Assembly: GCF_003061515.1 (NCBI RefSeq)
Contig: NZ_CP028924.1
Span: forward strand, 62,001 to 126,000
From: Colwellia sp. Arc7-D
GTDB lineage: Bacteria; Pseudomonadota; Gammaproteobacteria; Enterobacterales; Alteromonadaceae
Reading direction: 5' to 3'
DNA length: 64,000 bases
Shown here in pieces: positions 1,991-56,798 of the stretch. The notes under the pieces are model-generated. The model worked only from the letters and a program-made list of their open reading frames with translations, did no database searches and was not told where the DNA came from. A program made the translations under genes and the position numbers. How positions within the stretch are numbered: position 1 is the first letter of the stretch; every line of letters begins with the position of its first letter.

Positions 1991-4900
1991 ATGCTTAAAC
2001 AGTTAGTGCGCACGTTATTAAGTGTAGTTTTTATTCTTGTCATTGGCATTACCCAAAGTGGGCTAATCACGAACGTTGAAGCACAAGAGTCAAACCTTGA
2101 AAGTGAGATCAAGACCACTATTGAGCGTGTTCAGCAAACAACTGACTTAGATGAAAAACAGCAAAAAAACACCCTTAATAAGCTAGAAGATGCACAAGAC
2201 ATGTTGGCTACAGCCAAAGAACAACAGCGTCTTACCTTAGATTATGAGGCGCGAGCCGCAAGTGCATCTCAAAAAGTCATTGCTATTAGACAAAGCAACC
2301 AAGCACTGCAAGAGCAAGAAGTGCAAATAGATAAAAGCCAATCGTCTGATAAACTCGAAAACCAACTGCTCTTACAAAGAGCAGAGCAAAAGAATCGGCT
2401 GGCGCAACTTTCAGACAAACAAAGTGAGCAAACAGTACTGAGTTTGCGGGCTAATAAAATTGCTGAGCAATTAAGTGCCGCGCGGGCTGACGAAACGGCC
2501 ATTAATCAAGCGATAGCCAAGAAACCAGCTGATAATATAAGCCTTGATGCAAGAGCCGACTATCTTGAAAAACAAGCCAATGCCCAAAAACTTACTGCGA
2601 CTATTAAGGCTCTTGAAAGCGAGATAGCTACTATTCCCGCTCGCCAATCGTTAGTAGAAGCAGAGTTAAGCCAGCTGCGCACACAAAGTACATTTTATGA
2701 TAAACAGATCGCTTTACTTCAATCTTACTTAGCCGATAACCGAGAGAGTGAAGTACAAAAAACGGTAGAACTAAGCAGTGCCGTTCTGGCCAAATTAGAG
2801 CAACATCCAGCCCTTGAAGCTATAGCAAGTGAAAATTTGTCATTGGCGAATCAGTTGCAAGACTTACAAAGTATCGCGCCAGAAAGTGAAACCAATGTAG
2901 CAGCGTTACAAAAGCAACTTGTTGAAGTTCAACAGTCTGCAGAAACGGTTGATAGAGTGTTAGCTACGGGCCGTGTTACCGATGAGCTAGGTGAGTTGTT
3001 ACGAAGACTTCGTGCGAGCTTACCTGTGGAATCGGTGCTTGAGCAACGTCATGAAAAGCTTAAAGAAACAACCATTCGTCAACAGCTTAATATGATTTTA
3101 TGGCAAGACCAGCTGCGAAATTTAGCCCATATTCCTGATACGGCACAGCGTCTACTGCTTGAAAATAGCCCTCAGCAGAGCAAAAAAAATCAGTTGAGTA
3201 AAAGTGAAGAGACAGATTTATTCACGAGCTTCGAGCTTGAAAAGGCCGAAGAGCTAACTACATCTCGTCGAGATTTACTACGTAATTTGATTAACGCATC
3301 GAACACACAAGCTGATCGTACAACGGATGAAAAATTGGCAATCAGCGAGTTACTTTTAGCGAGCTCTGCACTCAGTGCGTTATTGGAGCGGCGTTTAATT
3401 TGGCTACCATCGTCCAGTTCAGGTATTGCCGGTGATTTTGCTGTAAATATTTTAATCAGCGTTGAATGGTTTTTGTCACCTACAGCATGGTGGAACTTGG
3501 TCAACGATCTTTACAGCGGTGCTCTATCATCGCCTTTTCTCTTATTGCTTTTTGTTACTATACCATTGCTGATTTTGCTAAGCCGTAGAATGATTAAACG
3601 TACCTTGTGGTCGTTATTTGAAAAGGTGGGTGATGTAGAACATGACACTTATTACAGTACGCCCTTTGCGTTACTCTTAACTTTTGCATTAGCTTTACCT
3701 TTACCTGTTTGCTTGTTTACTGTTGCTGGCATGATCTCAGAAGGTGCTTCGCCATTGAGCTTTTCTACCGCCATAGCGAGTGGATTAGCGGCGGTTTCAT
3801 CAGTAAGTTTAATACTATTGTCTTTTCGTTCAATGTGTCGTGAAAACGGCATGTTTGAAAAACACTTTGGTTGGAGTGCCAAAGCGCGACGTAAACTACG
3901 CGCTATGCTGACATGGTTTGTGTGGTTAGAGTCGGTAACCGGCTTTGTATTTGCTACCGCGATTGCTAGTGGTGAAACTGAGCTGAGATACGGCATCGCA
4001 ATTTTAGCGTTTATAATCAGCTCTATTGGTATTGCGGTATTCAGTTATCAATTCTTTCAACCTAAGAGTGGCGTGGCCACCAGCATAGCTGGTGAAACTC
4101 CGGCAAACCTCCTTACGCTTATTGCCTTTCCCATTGCTGTACTGGCACCTTTTGCCATCGGTTCAATGCCACTTTTCGGATATTTTGATACAGCCGTAGA
4201 GTTGCAATCTAAAGTCTTTATGTCAGGCACGTTACTGGTTATGTCAGCTGTTATTTACGGCATTATATTACGTGTTTTTCTAGTGACATTTCGCCGATAT
4301 ATGGTCCGAAAAGCGCAAAAAGAAACCGAAGAGTTAGCGTTAAAAAAGGCCGAGCAACAAAGCGAATCAAACGTTGAAGAAATCGCTACAGCTGAAGAAA
4401 GTCAGAGCATTGATGAAGAAGAAGTGAAACGCCAAAGCCAATCAATTATGCGCTGGTTCACCGGTTTATTATTGTTAGCGGGGCTTTGGTTTATTTGGAT
4501 GCCATTACTACCAGCACTAGGGATTGTTGATGATATTGTCGTTTGGCAACAAGTAAAAATGGTCGACGGTGTAGAACTATCAAGTGGCGTTACCCTGTGG
4601 AATATTATTCTGTCATTGGCGTTTGTTGTTGGTGGCTTTTTAGCAGCGAAAAATATACGTGGCGTAATGGAAATTGGTTTTTTCGAACGATTTGAAATGG
4701 ACGATGGCGCTCGCTATGCCATTATGTCAATTTTGGGTTATGTAATTGTTGGCAGCGGTATCGTCATTGGCTTTTCTCAACTTGGCATAGATTGGTCCAA
4801 ATTACAGTGGATCATAGCCGCGCTAGGTGTTGGTCTGGGCTTTGGCTTGCAAGAAATTGTGGCAAACTTTGTTTCTGGTTTAATCATATTATTTGAACGA

Positions 4901-10430: not shown

Positions 10431-11951
10431 ATGCGCTTTAAATCCAACCTACTTTCAACGATTTCACCTTCAAAAGTGCTGCTACTATCATCAGCACTTG
10501 TACTTGCGGCTTGTGGCGGCGGCAGTGACAGCTCAAATGTCGGCTATGTTAAATTTTATAACAGCTCAAAAAACGCACCTGACATTATTCTTACCCTTGA
10601 TCAAGATCTTGAGTCAGACGATGATGACGATTCTGATAATTTTGAAGTAACCTTTAATGGTGTTGCATATACAGAAGCTTTAAGCGTATTTGAAATAGAC
10701 ACTAACAGCTATTTTTACGAAATGGGTTGGCAAGATGAAGACAGTAGCGACCGTGATGATCTTGAGAAAGTTGCAGAAGGGCAAATTAACGTTACTACCG
10801 ATACCATTCAACTATTAGTGCTAACAGATGACATTACCGCACCACAAGTTGAGACTTACAGCATTGATGTGCTAGATGATGATGAAGACGAAGATGAAGA
10901 TTTATTCAACTTACGTGTTTTGAATTTACACCCCGATTCAGTCGGCGTTGACTTTTACATGTCAGAGTCTGATGAAACTTTTAATGAAGCAACGCTAGTA
11001 GGTCAATACAACTATAAGCAGTTATCAGATAATCAAAAGTTTGATCAAGACGAATATATTTTTTATATCACGAAGTCAGGTACGCAAGAAGTGCTATTTA
11101 CTTCTGACGACATAGATTACGCATACCCAGCACAATATGTGATGATTATTCGCGAGAACACCGGCTCAGGCACATCGCCTTATGCTATGGATAGAATGTC
11201 TAACTCGTCAATTACTGAATATTTAGATACTGACTCTGAAGCACAGTTTCGCGCATACAATGCGATCAGAGAACATGAACTAATCCCTAACTACACCGGC
11301 ACTTTAGATATATATATTAATGGTGTTGATGATGAAGCAGAAATATCAGCGCTTGAAATTGGTAGCTATAGCGAAACTAAAGTTCAAGATAAAGGTGATT
11401 ACAGTTTAGATTTATTAATTCCGGGTACTACTGAGCGCCTTTTAAGTAATCACTTATTAAGCCTGGCTGAAAACACCAATAAAACCGTATTCTTTTACTT
11501 AAATGAAGAAGATGTTGATCTCGATGGCGATGGTAACGTAGATGAGAACAATGACGGTATTGTTGATGAAATTGAAATAACCATTAAATCACTTGTCGTT
11601 GCAAACAGTACGCGCGAAAGTATCTACGATCATCAAATAACCATGATAGATTTAGTTGATAGTGACGACTTTAATTTTGTGAAATTCTATTTTGTACGCA
11701 GTGATGAAACCATAGAAACAGCATTGTATAACCGCAGTGCAGTATACACTCAACCTGAGTCAATTTACTTACAAAACAATACTTATCAGGTGTTTGCTAT
11801 TGCAGAAGTTGATAGTAGTGAGGTTATTTTATCAAGCTTTCAATTAACCCTTGATGAAGACTCAGACGAGCTATTTTTAATTGTTGAAGCTGATGACGAT
11901 TCGCCAACAGGCTATCGCATTGAAATGATTAAGCAAACAGAAGACCAGTAG
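10431..11951 (+). CDS. Acidic lipoprotein of unknown function
   Basis: I do not recognise a characterised family. The N-terminus is a lipoprotein signal ending LVLAACGGG, with the predicted lipidated Cys near residue 27. The mature protein is very acidic, with Asp/Glu runs such as ESDDDDDSDN near 60 and DDDEDEDED near 150, and DGDGN-type loops near 365 that resemble calcium-binding loops. Repeated segments of the form NLHPDSVGVDFYMS and AYNAIREHE suggest tandem DUF4397-like beta domains; this is tentative. The ATG at 10431 is preferred over an upstream in-frame TTG at 10419 because GGAAAAAT lies just before it. A shared terminator follows at 12014-12040. Confidence 0.75.
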   Translation: MRFKSNLLSTISPSKVLLLSSALVLAACGGGSDSSNVGYVKFYNSSKNAPDIILTLDQDLESDDDDDSDNFEVTFNGVAYTEALSVFEIDTNSYFYEMGWQDEDSSDRDDLEKVAEGQINVTTDTIQLLVLTDDITAPQVETYSIDVLDDDEDEDEDLFNLRVLNLHPDSVGVDFYMSESDETFNEATLVGQYNYKQLSDNQKFDQDEYIFYITKSGTQEVLFTSDDIDYAYPAQYVMIIRENTGSGTSPYAMDRMSNSSITEYLDTDSEAQFRAYNAIREHELIPNYTGTLDIYINGVDDEAEISALEIGSYSETKVQDKGDYSLDLLIPGTTERLLSNHLLSLAENTNKTVFFYLNEEDVDLDGDGNVDENNDGIVDEIEITIKSLVVANSTRESIYDHQITMIDLVDSDDFNFVKFYFVRSDETIETALYNRSAVYTQPESIYLQNNTYQVFAIAEVDSSEVILSSFQLTLDEDSDELFLIVEADDDSPTGYRIEMIKQTEDQ

Positions 11952-51853: not shown

Positions 51854-52462
51854 ATGAAGAAAATCATAACGATTACAACTCTAGCGGGAGCAACGACCTT
51901 TGGTTTATTTGCTTTTATGGCATATTTAGTAAGTAACGATCAGGTATTGCCCCCTGAAGTGATGCCTAATTTAATTGTTGAAGTTGCGCAATTACCTGAC
52001 GAGCGCCCGGCTGAAATTAAGCCCGTATTTAAGAATGATCCACCCCCAACACCTAAGCCTATGCCAAAAACTTTTGAACCAGTGGTGGAAACAAGTGTTA
52101 TAGGTGATTATCATTACGATACTCAAGGGATTAAAATCGCAAGCTCTTCGCCTAACCTACTATTAGGTAATAATACTCGTGATAATGATGCTCGACCTAT
52201 TGTGCGAATTAATCCTAAATATCCAACGGGTGCTGCCAGAGAAGGAATAGAGGGTTGGGTTAAATTACGTTTTGATATTAACGCGCTAGGTGGTGTTACC
52301 AATATTGAGGTTATTGACGCTGAACCGAAGCGGGTATTTAATCAAGCAGCTAAACAGGCATTAAAAAAATGGAAGTATCGGGCCAAGTCAGAAGCTGGAG
52401 AAACAGTTACTCAGCAAGGTTTAACCGTGCAGTTAGCGTTTAATATGGATCAACAAAGTTAG
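51854..52462 (+). CDS. TonB family energy transducer
   Basis: A 202-residue TonB-like protein: an N-terminal membrane anchor (about 5-27), a Pro-rich periplasmic linker (KNDPPPTPKPMPKTFEP), and a C-terminal TonB domain (about 110-200) with the YP motif in INPKYPTGAAREGIEGWV and AAKQALKKWKY. First gene of an operon with an ECF sigma gene (9 bp downstream) and a second TonB-domain gene. No exbB or exbD is nearby. It presumably powers outer-membrane receptors such as that at 6201, but its partner is unknown. Confidence 0.88.
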   Translation: MKKIITITTLAGATTFGLFAFMAYLVSNDQVLPPEVMPNLIVEVAQLPDERPAEIKPVFKNDPPPTPKPMPKTFEPVVETSVIGDYHYDTQGIKIASSSPNLLLGNNTRDNDARPIVRINPKYPTGAAREGIEGWVKLRFDINALGGVTNIEVIDAEPKRVFNQAAKQALKKWKYRAKSEAGETVTQQGLTVQLAFNMDQQS

Positions 52463-52471
52463 GGAAATAAT

Positions 52472-53038
52472 TTGCAGTTACCTTCGATGATAAAGGGTTG
52501 GTATAACCCAAACGCTAGTCCTGAAGTGTTACTGACAAACTATAGGGCAACCGGTAAAAATAAGTACCTTTCTTTGCTGGTTGCGCAATTTAATTTGTCG
52601 CTATATCACTATGTTTTGAGCCAATCTAATAAAGAAATAGCGGAAGATGTTGTACAAACGACATGGCTAAAGGTGATACAAACTCAACAACAAAATAGCG
52701 TACAAACCAATGTAAAAAGTTGGATTTTCACTATTGCTCGCAACAGCTTAATTGATGAATTTCGTCGTCAAAAAAAGTGGCAAATTCAGTTGTTAGATGA
52801 AAATAAAATGCTTACGGTAAACCTTGAAAAATCAATACAGAGTGCTGACAGATTAACACAATTTAATGCTGCGCTTGAGCAATTACCCTTTTTACAAAGG
52901 GAGGCTTTTATCTTTCAACAAGAAGGTTTTTCAGTGTCAGACATATCAACGTTAACCAATGATAGCTTTGAAACAATTAAAAGCCGTTTACGCTATGCCC
53001 GCAATAATTTAAATCATTTGCTAGGAAGCCAATCATGA
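52472..53038 (+). CDS. ECF-type RNA polymerase sigma factor
   Basis: A 188-residue sigma-70 family protein with region 2 (about 25-95; NKEIAEDVVQTTWLKVIQ and FTIARNSLIDEFRRQKK) and region 4 (about 125-185; LPFLQREAFIFQQEGFSVSDIS, then SFETIKSRLRYARNNL). Start is TTG at 52472 with AGGGAA upstream. It overlaps the next gene by 4 bp (ATGA), the usual coupling of an ECF sigma gene to its anti-sigma factor. Its target promoters are unknown; a candidate ECF-like promoter set lies 3.2 kb downstream. Confidence 0.9.
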   Translation: MQLPSMIKGWYNPNASPEVLLTNYRATGKNKYLSLLVAQFNLSLYHYVLSQSNKEIAEDVVQTTWLKVIQTQQQNSVQTNVKSWIFTIARNSLIDEFRRQKKWQIQLLDENKMLTVNLEKSIQSADRLTQFNAALEQLPFLQREAFIFQQEGFSVSDISTLTNDSFETIKSRLRYARNNLNHLLGSQS

Positions 53039-53745
53039 GTACCGATAATTTTGATAATGAGCTTTCGAGACTTTATCAACAAAGAAAAAATCAAACCCAA
53101 GCGACCGATATTACTCTAGATTTAGACAAAGGTATTAAGTTAAAGCGTTCGCCTTGGCATGTTGTCGCTATATTTTTAATGGGAGGTGTGGCGTCTTTTG
53201 GCATAATGGCTATTGTTACCCATTTTGCAAAACCAGCTGTACATGGCATTAGTGAACAATATATTCAGCATACTGTTCGCATCGTTGAATTAGGTGAAGT
53301 TATATCTCAAGAGCAAGGTTTAACTATCGTTAATCCGGAGTTGCCTCCTCAACCGTCGAGTTTATCACCAAAAAACTCACAAAACCGTCATGTTAGCCTA
53401 GATGAAATTGTATTGTTAAAGCCACAATTACCTGTTCAAAAAGCACTAAAAAATTCGCTTAAAGTACCAAAAATCAACGCCCAGTTAATTGACATAAGAC
53501 CCATTCATCGTGTGATGCCCGAATACCCTAAGTCGGCCCTGCATGCGCGAAAATTTGGTACAGTTAAGCTTCAATATCGCATTTCAAATGAAGGTAAAGC
53601 AGTCGATATTGCTAGCTTGAATAAGCAAGTTGATCGTGTGTTAGAACGCTCGGCTAAAAAGGCATTAACACAATGGCGCTATCCTTTAGAAAGCAGCAGT
53701 GATCAGCTACGAGAAGTTGAATTTGAATTTAATTTGCCACAGTAA
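53035..53745 (+). CDS. Membrane protein with C-terminal TonB domain, possible anti-sigma factor
   Basis: A 236-residue single-pass protein: a short cytoplasmic part (about 1-40, DNELSRLYQQRKNQTQ), one membrane helix (about 42-64), a periplasmic linker, and a TonB-like C-terminal domain (about 150-235; RVMPEYPKSALHARKFGTV, then SAKKALTQWRYPL). It is translationally coupled to the ECF sigma gene. Two readings are possible: a second energy transducer, or an anti-sigma factor whose periplasmic sensor is a TonB domain. The position favours the second; the sequence of the cytoplasmic part shows no known anti-sigma domain. Confidence 0.8.
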   Translation: MSTDNFDNELSRLYQQRKNQTQATDITLDLDKGIKLKRSPWHVVAIFLMGGVASFGIMAIVTHFAKPAVHGISEQYIQHTVRIVELGEVISQEQGLTIVNPELPPQPSSLSPKNSQNRHVSLDEIVLLKPQLPVQKALKNSLKVPKINAQLIDIRPIHRVMPEYPKSALHARKFGTVKLQYRISNEGKAVDIASLNKQVDRVLERSAKKALTQWRYPLESSSDQLREVEFEFNLPQ

Positions 53746-55403: not shown

Positions 55404-55683
55404 GAATTACTTTCATAAGCATTCATCTGTAATATTTGTGCTGCAATACTAGCGCTATCACTTAGCTAATTCTTCACAAGCTATATTTAAAATACAGCCA
55501 ATCATAATAGCGGAGTAGCTTATATGCTTTTTTCAAAAAATTCAGCTAAATCTACCCGCGAATAGTTTAGAAAGTTAGTTATGATATTGATATAGTTACT
55601 TTGTCATTGCCAGAAAAATCAAATTAAAGCGGTAGTGTTCATCATTTTCCTACCCACTCATTATCATAAAGGTGACAATCATC

Positions 55684-56100
55684 ATGGATATTATGAATGA
55701 AGCTCTGCCCATTTCTATTAACGTAAGTGATGCTCTAGCTGCCGAAATAAAAAATATATTATCTATTAGCAATAAGTTATCAGCACAATTAAATTTTCAT
55801 ACAATGACAGCAAATTGGTATGGAGAAGAAGAGAATGTTTTGTCGATTAATTTTTATCTTGTATCTTTTGTCGAACTTAATAATTTAGCCAAAAATATTG
55901 ATAAAGCTGATGTTGATAAACTTGCTGACGATGTGTTACTCAGCTCAATACAACGTGTATTAGATTGTCATGTTGCTATTACTGATACAGAGTTAGTATT
56001 AATAGAAAAACAACCTAAGCTATTGTCGGGGTATCTGGCTAAAAAGCTTACAAAAGTACTTAACTTAATTGCCGATAGACAGGGGTTTGTGCATATATAG
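55684..56100 (+). CDS. Hypothetical protein, 138 residues
   Basis: I do not recognise a family. The product is acidic, without signal peptide or membrane segment, and looks like a mixed alpha/beta protein (ALAAEIKNILSISNKLSAQL, VLSINFYLVSFVELNNLA). ATG 55684 is preferred over a GTG at 55672 because AAGGTGA precedes it by 8 bases. The stop codon is about 85 bp before the first unit of the tandem small RNA array. Confidence 0.65.
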   Translation: MDIMNEALPISINVSDALAAEIKNILSISNKLSAQLNFHTMTANWYGEEENVLSINFYLVSFVELNNLAKNIDKADVDKLADDVLLSSIQRVLDCHVAITDTELVLIEKQPKLLSGYLAKKLTKVLNLIADRQGFVHI

Positions 56101-56184
56101 TGCTATGGCAATGTAATTTTTATGCATCAAAAATCAATAAAAGACCTAAAAACTATAATTAAGTTATATTAATTTAAAATAAAA

Positions 56185-56213
56185 TTGAACTAAAGCTGAA
56201 TATGATGCTCTGA
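56185..56213 (+). promoter_or_regulatory. ECF-sigma-like promoter, unit 1 of RNA array
   Basis: TTGAACTAA (from 56185) and TCTGA (56209-56213) have the arrangement of GAACTT / TCTGA sigma-E-type elements with 15 bases between GAACTAA and TCTGA. The same elements recur at 56476/56500 and 56685/56709 with identical spacing, while the spacer sequence of unit 3 is different. Confidence 0.5.
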
Positions 56214-56218
56214 CTTAA

Positions 56219-56311
56219 TAAGAGATTCTCCCCTCGGTTTTGTTTTTATTATTGTTTTATATTAGTGTTTTTATATTGTTATACGCTCCTCATTTGAGGG
56301 GCGTTTTTTTT
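56219..56311 (+). ncRNA. Predicted small RNA, unit 1 of tandem trio
   Basis: About 92 nt. The 5' part is AGAGATTCTCCCCTCGG, followed by a U-rich, structure-poor middle and the terminator CGCTCCTC-ATTT-GAGGGGCG (56284-56303) with eight T. The U-rich middle and terminal poly-U are features of Hfq-bound RNAs. No open frame. The 5' CCCCTC is complementary to GAGGGG of the terminator, so two alternative foldings are possible. Start point is inferred from the promoter-like elements. Confidence 0.72.
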
Positions 56312-56475
56312 GTTTATTTTTTACCTAATAGGTATTGGTTTATTCAGCACTTAATTTACTTCATTTCACCAAGTATAAAATACTGACTTTATATTTTATA
56401 AATTAAACAAAACAACACAATTAATTGTTTAAGGTGAATAGAAAAAAACACTATGAAATTTTATGTTAAATAAAA

Positions 56476-56504
56476 TTGAACTAAAGCTGAATATGATGCT
56501 CTGA
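56476..56504 (+). promoter_or_regulatory. ECF-sigma-like promoter, unit 2 of RNA array
   Basis: TTGAACTAA from 56476 and TCTGA at 56500-56504, spacing as in units 1 and 3; the spacer is identical to unit 1. Confidence 0.5.
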
Positions 56505-56509
56505 CTTAA

Positions 56510-56614
56510 TAAGAGATTCTCCCTCGATTTTGTTTTTATTAGTGTTTTATATTGTTGTTTTATATTAGTGTTTTTATATTGTTATACGCTCCTCACATGA
56601 GGGGCGTTTTTTTT
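56510..56614 (+). ncRNA. Predicted small RNA, unit 2 of tandem trio
   Basis: Same plan as unit 1, but the C-rich segment reads TCTCCCTCGA (one C shorter, G to A) and the U-rich middle is longer. Terminator CGCTCCTC-ACAT-GAGGGGCG (56587-56606) plus eight T: the stem is unchanged while the loop has changed, as expected for a selected hairpin. Confidence 0.72.
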
Positions 56615-56684
56615 GCCTGCGAAAACGTTCTTCATAGGTGTAGTGCTTATGTCTAAAAAAAATGACATTTTATTTTTATCCCAA

Positions 56685-56713
56685 TTGAACTAATTTTAAT
56701 TAAGTTACTCTGA
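56685..56713 (+). promoter_or_regulatory. ECF-sigma-like promoter, unit 3 of RNA array
   Basis: TTGAACTAA from 56685 and TCTGA at 56709-56713. The 15-base spacer differs from units 1 and 2 in most positions, yet both elements and their distance are preserved, which is the best evidence that they are functional. Confidence 0.55.
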
Positions 56714-56718
56714 CTTAA

Positions 56719-56798
56719 TAAGAGATTCTCCCCTCGGTTTTGTTTTATTAGTGTTTATGTTTTTATTATACGCTCCTCATTTGAGGGGCGTTTTTTTT
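56719..56798 (+). ncRNA. Predicted small RNA, unit 3 of tandem trio
   Basis: About 79 nt, the shortest unit. 5' AGAGATTCTCCCCTCGG and terminator CGCTCCTC-ATTT-GAGGGGCG (56771-56790) with eight T are identical to unit 1; the U-rich middle is shorter. It ends about 150 bp before the OxyR operator of ahpC, so it is a separate transcript. Confidence 0.72.

Follow-up and report, generated by a model that had tools for sequence, protein, structure and literature searches.

The window (the whole 64,000-nucleotide stretch of Colwellia sp. Arc7-D that was analysed) contains three small RNA (sRNA) units in tandem, judged here to belong to a new sigma E small RNA family that is unusual in its tandem amplification and in the sibling seeds of its copies. 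The units are probably separate genes for trans-acting sRNAs, transcribed by sigma E under envelope stress and repressing outer-membrane protein mRNAs, above all those of TonB-dependent receptors.

Layout of the array

All three units lie on the plus strand and share one order of elements: TTGAACT (starting at 56185, 56476 and 56685 in units 1, 2 and 3), TCTGA (56209, 56500 and 56709), the segment AAGAGATTCTCCC(C)TCG (56220, 56511 and 56720), then a U-rich middle, and finally a terminator whose nine-pair stem (56283-56304, 56586-56607 and 56770-56791) is followed by a T run. An earlier note on this DNA had described three such tandem units free of any coding frame, and both descriptions hold: every element that it listed is present at its place, and no credible coding frame covers the units, the longest listed plus-strand ORFs being 48 and 34 aa, with TTG starts, and reading through the terminators. 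In the feature list below, E values refer to two covariance models, R1, built from 26 units, and R2, built from 34 diverse units with the window's type excluded; promoter ranks refer to a matrix made from rpoE promoters only, and RNA start sites are placed by their distance from the -10 element.

55684-56100, plus strand: hypothetical ORF directly upstream of the array (listed with a GTG start at 55672; its first ATG is at 55684)
56184-56311, plus strand: sRNA unit 1, from its promoter through the T run of the terminator (R1 E 8.1e-22, in the training set; R2 E 2.1e-8)
56475-56614, plus strand: sRNA unit 2 (R1 E 4.4e-18, in the training set; R2 E 2.2e-8)
56684-56798, plus strand: sRNA unit 3 (R1 E 1.7e-20, in the training set; R2 E 9.4e-9)
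56185-56213, plus strand: unit 1 promoter of sigma E type, with GAACT and TCTGA 17 nt apart (rpoE-only matrix, tied rank 1)
56476-56504, plus strand: sigma E type promoter of unit 2 (rpoE-only matrix, tied rank 1)
56685-56713, plus strand: sigma E type promoter of unit 3 (rpoE-only matrix, tied rank 1)
56220-56237, plus strand: C-rich seed of unit 1, AAGAGATTCTCCCCTCGG, at the putative 5' end of the RNA (between-genome identity 0.887 in 39 units)
56511-56527, plus strand: seed of unit 2 at its putative 5' end, with one C fewer (sequence, alignment)
56720-56737, plus strand: seed of unit 3 at its putative 5' end (sequence, alignment)
56283-56311, plus strand: terminator of unit 1 (terminator scan, folding)
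56586-56614, plus strand: terminator of unit 2 (terminator scan, folding)
56770-56798, plus strand: terminator of unit 3 (terminator scan, folding)

Aligned with their flanks, the three unit stretches have a mean column identity of 81%. A terminator scan of 2.2 kb returned four terminator-like sites against 1.2 +/- 1.1 in shuffles, and three of the four belong to these units. Folded from AAGAG on, the predicted RNAs beat their shuffles (z -3.4, -3.3 and -2.8), with the terminator as the strongest element. Over 26 units, 99.1% of the terminator cells pair, with changes on both sides in two of the nine pairs; a U-G pair in the 5' arm is kept in 22/26 units. The seed CCCCUC (56230-56235) is complementary to the 3' arm of its own terminator, GAGGGG (56296-56301), which could reflect seed sequestration or chance. 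Around the start site, the dyad CTCTT...AAGAG was tried as a structure and rejected (75% of cells pair, a level reached by 161/500 shuffles; its covariation score was reached by 20/500 shuffles and other measures by 150-359). The corresponding CTCT...AGAG at 56208-56224 overlaps the -10 element and the presumed start, shows little covariation over 34 units, and is possibly an operator or a product of chance.

Conservation and distribution of the family

Within the genus, R1 lists 39 units in 16 genomes, one to five per genome, of which 25 were in the training set of the model and 14 outside it; the 17th genome (G007) has no row in the R1 listing, yet it was the source of one training unit. An exact 13-base search for the 5' segment found it in 17/17 genus genomes (own included), in 0/19 genomes from the family's other genera, and in 2/24 genomes from other families, both times without promoter and terminator. 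As the first 26 units were biased by this exact search, the conservation figures rest instead on the 39 model-listed units and on pairs from different genomes only. Identity so measured is 0.985 for the -35 element, 0.893 for the -10 element, 0.887 for the 18-nt 5' segment, 0.93-0.95 for the terminator arms and 0.70 for the loop, against 0.391 for the spacer and 0.449 for the middle. The contrast that had been noted among the three window units, a conserved 5' segment and stem beside a changing spacer and middle, thus extends to 16 genomes. AAGAGA followed by a run of three to six C is present in 39/39 genus units, and the sibling seeds vary among them (UCUCCCCUC, UUUCCCCCUC, UUCCCCCCUC and others). 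Since the nearest neighbour lies in the same genome for only 7/37 units, most copies are not recent duplicates. A degenerate pattern run over named genomes, a search that possibly left out records near the window's own, matched 13 stretches with titles that are all Colwellia or Cognaticolwellia.

Three further units, with the seed ACUUCCCUGAG, lie elsewhere in the genome of the window (G000:C1:1299613-1306640) and form a second set. In the extracted locus (L081, units at 3614-3999 and 10525-10641), one nearby ORF is, by eye, a YSC84-like lipoprotein and another is catalase-peroxidase-like, and a large lipoprotein-like ORF stands between units of the set. The reverse complement of the seed of the window array, with up to two mismatches, occurs at four places in this genome, two of which are that array itself.

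Related units are found across the family. R1 matches 81/295 genomes at E <=0.01, in 28/52 genera; about three chance matches are expected at this threshold and 12 candidates were scored per genome, so errors run both ways. In 20 regions, R1 detects 80 units with E no higher than 0.05, and a single 3.7-kb region (G085, L099) contains ten of these. TTCCCTTAGTGTTTCATG is a common core of such units, and a third unit type carries CCTCCCTGG within a GAGAGC/GCUUUC hairpin. Judged by sequence, then, arrays of related units exist beyond the genus, with up to ten units per region. The covariance-model search that the earlier note had suggested accordingly yielded both the 39 genus units and arrays in other genera. 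R2, which was trained without the window's type, recovers the window's units in a search of their own genome (E 1.7e-7, 4.2e-7 and 1.3e-6), and this supports common descent, promoter included. Repeating the search with laxer filters on 22 family genomes listed as having no R1 or R2 match (one of them, G096, did have an R1 match) gave weak matches in 6/22 genomes at seven places (E 0.014-0.074), and four of the seven loci show, by eye, a single-copy promoter, pyrimidine-rich segment and terminator.

Order-wide, R2 matches 39/394 genomes, 12 of which belong to the family. The 27 out-of-family matches are weak (E 2e-4 to 0.01), many on the promoter alone, and two of their loci (L149 and L163) show tandem units with other RNA bodies. 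Another family of the order has GAACT-type promoters before CATCATCTCCCT-like RNAs (L146, L149, L150, L162 and L164), with about five such units in tandem at L149 (G573) 885-1746; we take the CATCATCTCCCT-like segment to be reminiscent of MicA, and Rfam assigned no sRNA family at gathering score to loci of this type. On the reverse strand of L163 (G383), a four-unit tandem array at 1503-1961 has the body TTGGAATAGTG...TTTTTAGAAT and similar terminators.

Promoters and genomic neighbourhood

By sequence and spacing, the array promoters are of the sigma E type. RpoE is present in 17/17 genus genomes, and the region upstream of rpoE carries GAACT-17-TCCTACTT in 16/17 of them and the two-base variant TCTCACTT in the remaining one. 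A matrix built from these 17 rpoE promoters alone, which comprise six different sequences, and covering GAACT and seven -10 positions with the spacing fixed, places the three unit promoters in a tie for rank 1 among 127,928 window positions, at 14.2 bits, the next-best position scoring 12.6 bits. The promoter-like pairs of the earlier note are thus present at all three units, with the correction that they are of sigma E type and absent from the list of sites of a sigma-70 type scan of the array region. PMC1804206 gives the published sigma E motif as a -35 of GGAACTTTT and a -10 of GTCAAA; the unit -35 agrees with it, whereas the unit -10 (TCTGA/TCTTA) is unlike GTCAAA and represents a local type. 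The sigma E pattern was also tried on its own as a regulon definition and discarded, with 17 own-genome sites against 37 for a reversed control; six of the 17 are the units of the two arrays.

The immediate neighbourhood of the array is conserved on one side. The hypothetical ORF at 55684-56100 adjoins the array in 16/17 genus loci; it has no Pfam family, and named organisms among its 92 listed homologues are all Colwellia or Cognaticolwellia. On the other side, ahpC lies within the examined flank of 8/17 loci, with lexA next in some others, so the peroxide operon is not a conserved neighbour in the way that the hypothetical ORF is. Upstream of the array, a gene trio (TonB-like, ECF sigma, TonB-like) occupies 51854-53745 of the window.

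Two other regulators of the units have to be weighed. ECF factors commonly recognise GAAC-type -35 motifs, and the ECF gene of the window (52472-53038) sits 3.1 kb upstream of unit 1, which would fit transcription of the units by that or another ECF sigma factor. However, among 13 named 8-kb loci, several of them too short to reach that far, the ECF gene is present in three (L071, L072 and L077), and two loci that cover the interval from the endonuclease gene to the array (L069 and L073) lack it, whereas the promoter of rpoE itself matches the units in sequence and spacing; this reading is accordingly very improbable. An equally slim chance is given to peroxide-response sRNAs controlled by OxyR together with ahpC-ahpF, a link implied by the location in the earlier note. 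Unit 3 does end 0.2-0.3 kb before ahpC in the own genome, an oxyR-like LysR gene follows ahpF, and the second array has one unit about 1 kb from its catalase-peroxidase-like ORF (by eye). Yet the conservation of ahpC in the flank is the partial one just given, the units have an rpoE-type promoter, and the second-array region has no ahpC, ahpF or oxyR match; the implied peroxide link is not supported by these results.

Predicted targets and relation to known small RNAs

Plug matches number 32 in the own genome, 51 in G085 and 43 in G033. The own-genome receptor set comprises 30 TonB-dependent receptor genes of the 32 matches, a receptor being the longest ORF of its locus and the remaining genes its neighbours; the background, 581 other ORFs with a minimum length of 150 aa, was drawn from the window and from 39 stretches, each of 20 kb, across the first 2.8 Mb, one stretch (L166) being dropped for its overlap with the window. 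No other of the 157 4-mers present in the receptor SD zone (-20 to -4) is as enriched as GGGA (11/30 vs 29/581, p 5e-7), even with a choice of starts that favoured AGGA-type sites and so worked against GGGA. GGGGA follows the same trend (6/30 receptors vs 8/581 background ORFs), and neither AGGA (4/30 vs 156/581) nor GGAG (5/30 vs 95/581) is enriched in the own receptors. The GGGA excess holds among ORFs with an SD-like site (11/23 vs 29/348) and against neighbouring ORFs (11/30 vs 3/31, p 0.013), with 19/30 receptors lacking GGGA. Seed duplexes are also stronger at receptor sites, with 0/100 (seed A) and 1/100 (seed B) shuffled seeds as low. The UCCC seeds match the GGGA sites of receptors, which may point to receptor repression. 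All the target tests, here and below, are exploratory and uncorrected across seeds, and receptor paralogues are not independent.

Two further genomes both add to and qualify this picture. In G085, where the main seed is UUUUCCCCUUGUA and 30/51 receptors were read, GGGA occurs in 12/30 receptors vs 0/31 neighbours. Of five sequences tried in duplex tests, this main seed is the one that best separates the G085 receptors (medians of -11.25 against -4.30, p 3.3e-5, 0/100 shuffles), a second G085 seed does so more weakly (p 0.006, 5/100 shuffles), and seed A also separates the receptors of G085 (p 8e-4, 1/100 shuffles) and of G033 (p 0.003, 3/100). Neither R1 nor R2, the latter with laxer filters included, finds an array in G033, and the same GGGA excess is present there (12/30 vs 2/33 neighbours, 30/43 receptors read), so that G033 failed as a negative control. 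The GGGA excess may be a general feature of receptors, or the RNA of G033 may have diverged. Because of this excess, and because seed A fits the receptors of both genomes, co-evolution of seeds and receptors is not proven. Target prediction with the C-rich segment, as the earlier note had proposed, thus divides: the excess in the own receptors speaks for the segment, and its presence in a genome without a detected array speaks against.

A related reading keeps the sigma E sRNAs and moves their main targets from receptors to other exported proteins, or to a broad anti-SD effect. We consider it unlikely, though it is the strongest of the alternatives. Signal-peptide-like non-receptor genes do show some GGGA excess over other genes (10/93 vs 20/499, p 0.011, one gene being counted twice through the overlapping window and L166 sequence), and the best single partner of seed A in the sample is an 805-aa lipoprotein-like ORF whose start carries GTGGGGAGATAAAATG (own genome, reverse strand of L201 at 6777); non-receptors make up most of the 30 top-ranked seed A genes. 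However, receptors exceed exported genes in GGGA (11/30 vs 10/93, p 0.002), and an assumed 16S 3' end separates receptors from neighbours poorly in the three genomes (8, 27 and 37/100 shuffles as low). Far less probable is that the units are a decoy or sponge titrating another RNA or a protein, or terminator-bearing repeats without function. Such a role would suit their high copy number, the differences between sibling seeds and the complementarity of CCCCUC to the terminator 3' arm. Unlike a passive repeat, however, the units keep promoter, seed and terminator while spacer and middle drift, and the scarcity of nearest neighbours within the same genome again argues against recent duplication. 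Trans-acting repression of outer-membrane protein mRNAs remains the preferred reading.

A sigma E sRNA is a known kind of regulator, and to our knowledge those described are few single genes in model bacteria; what is new here is the family-wide tandem amplification with sibling seeds. Rfam returned nothing at gathering score for the window or for nine array loci, a permissive search of the array region gave ten matches, all far below gathering, and only tRNAs (in L150) passed gathering among ten further loci. The tandem multi-copy sRNA family proposed by the earlier note therefore stands as new to Rfam, minus the peroxide link. Titles and abstract openings among the matches listed in one open library do not contain these RNAs. 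Like the units, Qrr RNAs of Vibrio are multi-copy siblings in one genome; they belong to quorum sensing and sigma 54, and the window units gave no Rfam match. Anti-hemB (RF02837) and suhB/mmgR (RF00519), which we take to be cuckoo-type RNAs with C-rich anti-SD loops, likewise gave no Rfam match on the window units; a third-type relative (L144, G027) reaches sub-threshold scores for both (27.4 vs 49.5 bits and 24.9 vs 41 bits, respectively).

Closer parallels come from envelope-stress RNAs. RybB and MicA have sigma E promoters with an GGAACTTTT-like -35 and repress outer-membrane protein mRNAs (PMC1804206). The units resemble them in combining a sigma E type promoter, a short predicted intergenic RNA and its own terminator; they differ in being tandem copies with another 5' sequence, whereas RybB and MicA are two genes at separate loci (PMC1804206). 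Neither Rfam family matches at gathering or among the ten permissive matches. VrrA of Vibrio is sigma E dependent and pairs with the ribosome-binding region of ompA (PMC2628432). At 140 nt, it shares the sigma E link with the window units (on their side, by promoter type), and they are not members of its family (RF01456; 16.9 bits vs gathering 50, E 4.8). LhrC1-5 of Listeria are multi-copy and envelope-stress-induced, with UCCC motifs that pair with targets and are linked to SD binding; they differ in LisRK two-component control, a Gram-positive host and three motif copies per RNA (PMC4132741). Each window unit has one UCCC-type site (by eye) and a CUCCUC terminator arm, without the multiple UCCC sites of LhrC. 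In its combination of multiple copies, UCCC and presumed envelope-stress control, the array appears nearest in style to LhrC, an analogy for which we claim no homology.

Under the preferred reading, each unit would be its own gene for a trans-acting sRNA of ~80-105 nt. Outer-membrane stress would free sigma E, and every copy would then be transcribed from its own promoter. Through its C-rich 5' segment (UCUCCCCUC or a variant), the RNA would bind the ribosome-binding site on mRNAs encoding outer-membrane or exported proteins, chiefly TonB-dependent receptors, in which the SD is often GGGA or GGGGA; pairing would block translation and lower the envelope load, as with RybB, MicA and VrrA. The U-rich middle and T tail, both compatible with Hfq use, would serve Hfq, the gene for which was not found in the ~1.0 Mb searched of the 4.3-Mb own genome. 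With several tandem copies the response would be strong and fast, and differing C-run lengths among siblings would widen the target set. A bolder version, which we put forward only tentatively and hold to be rather doubtful as a whole, is a family-wide sigma E control of marine TonB-dependent receptors through sibling arrays growing to about ten copies, in which seeds diversify and co-evolve, genome by genome, with receptor GGGA sites (replacing AGGA-type sites); further families of the order would have sigma E arrays of their own, built on different RNA bodies.

The sigma E logic of the RybB/MicA type thus seems to have been amplified, in receptor-rich marine bacteria, into tandem arrays with diverged siblings. 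If true, this would add a family missing from Rfam, would show receptor ribosome-binding sites to be shaped by RNA pairing, and would open a direct route to testing why bacteria retain many similar regulatory RNAs.
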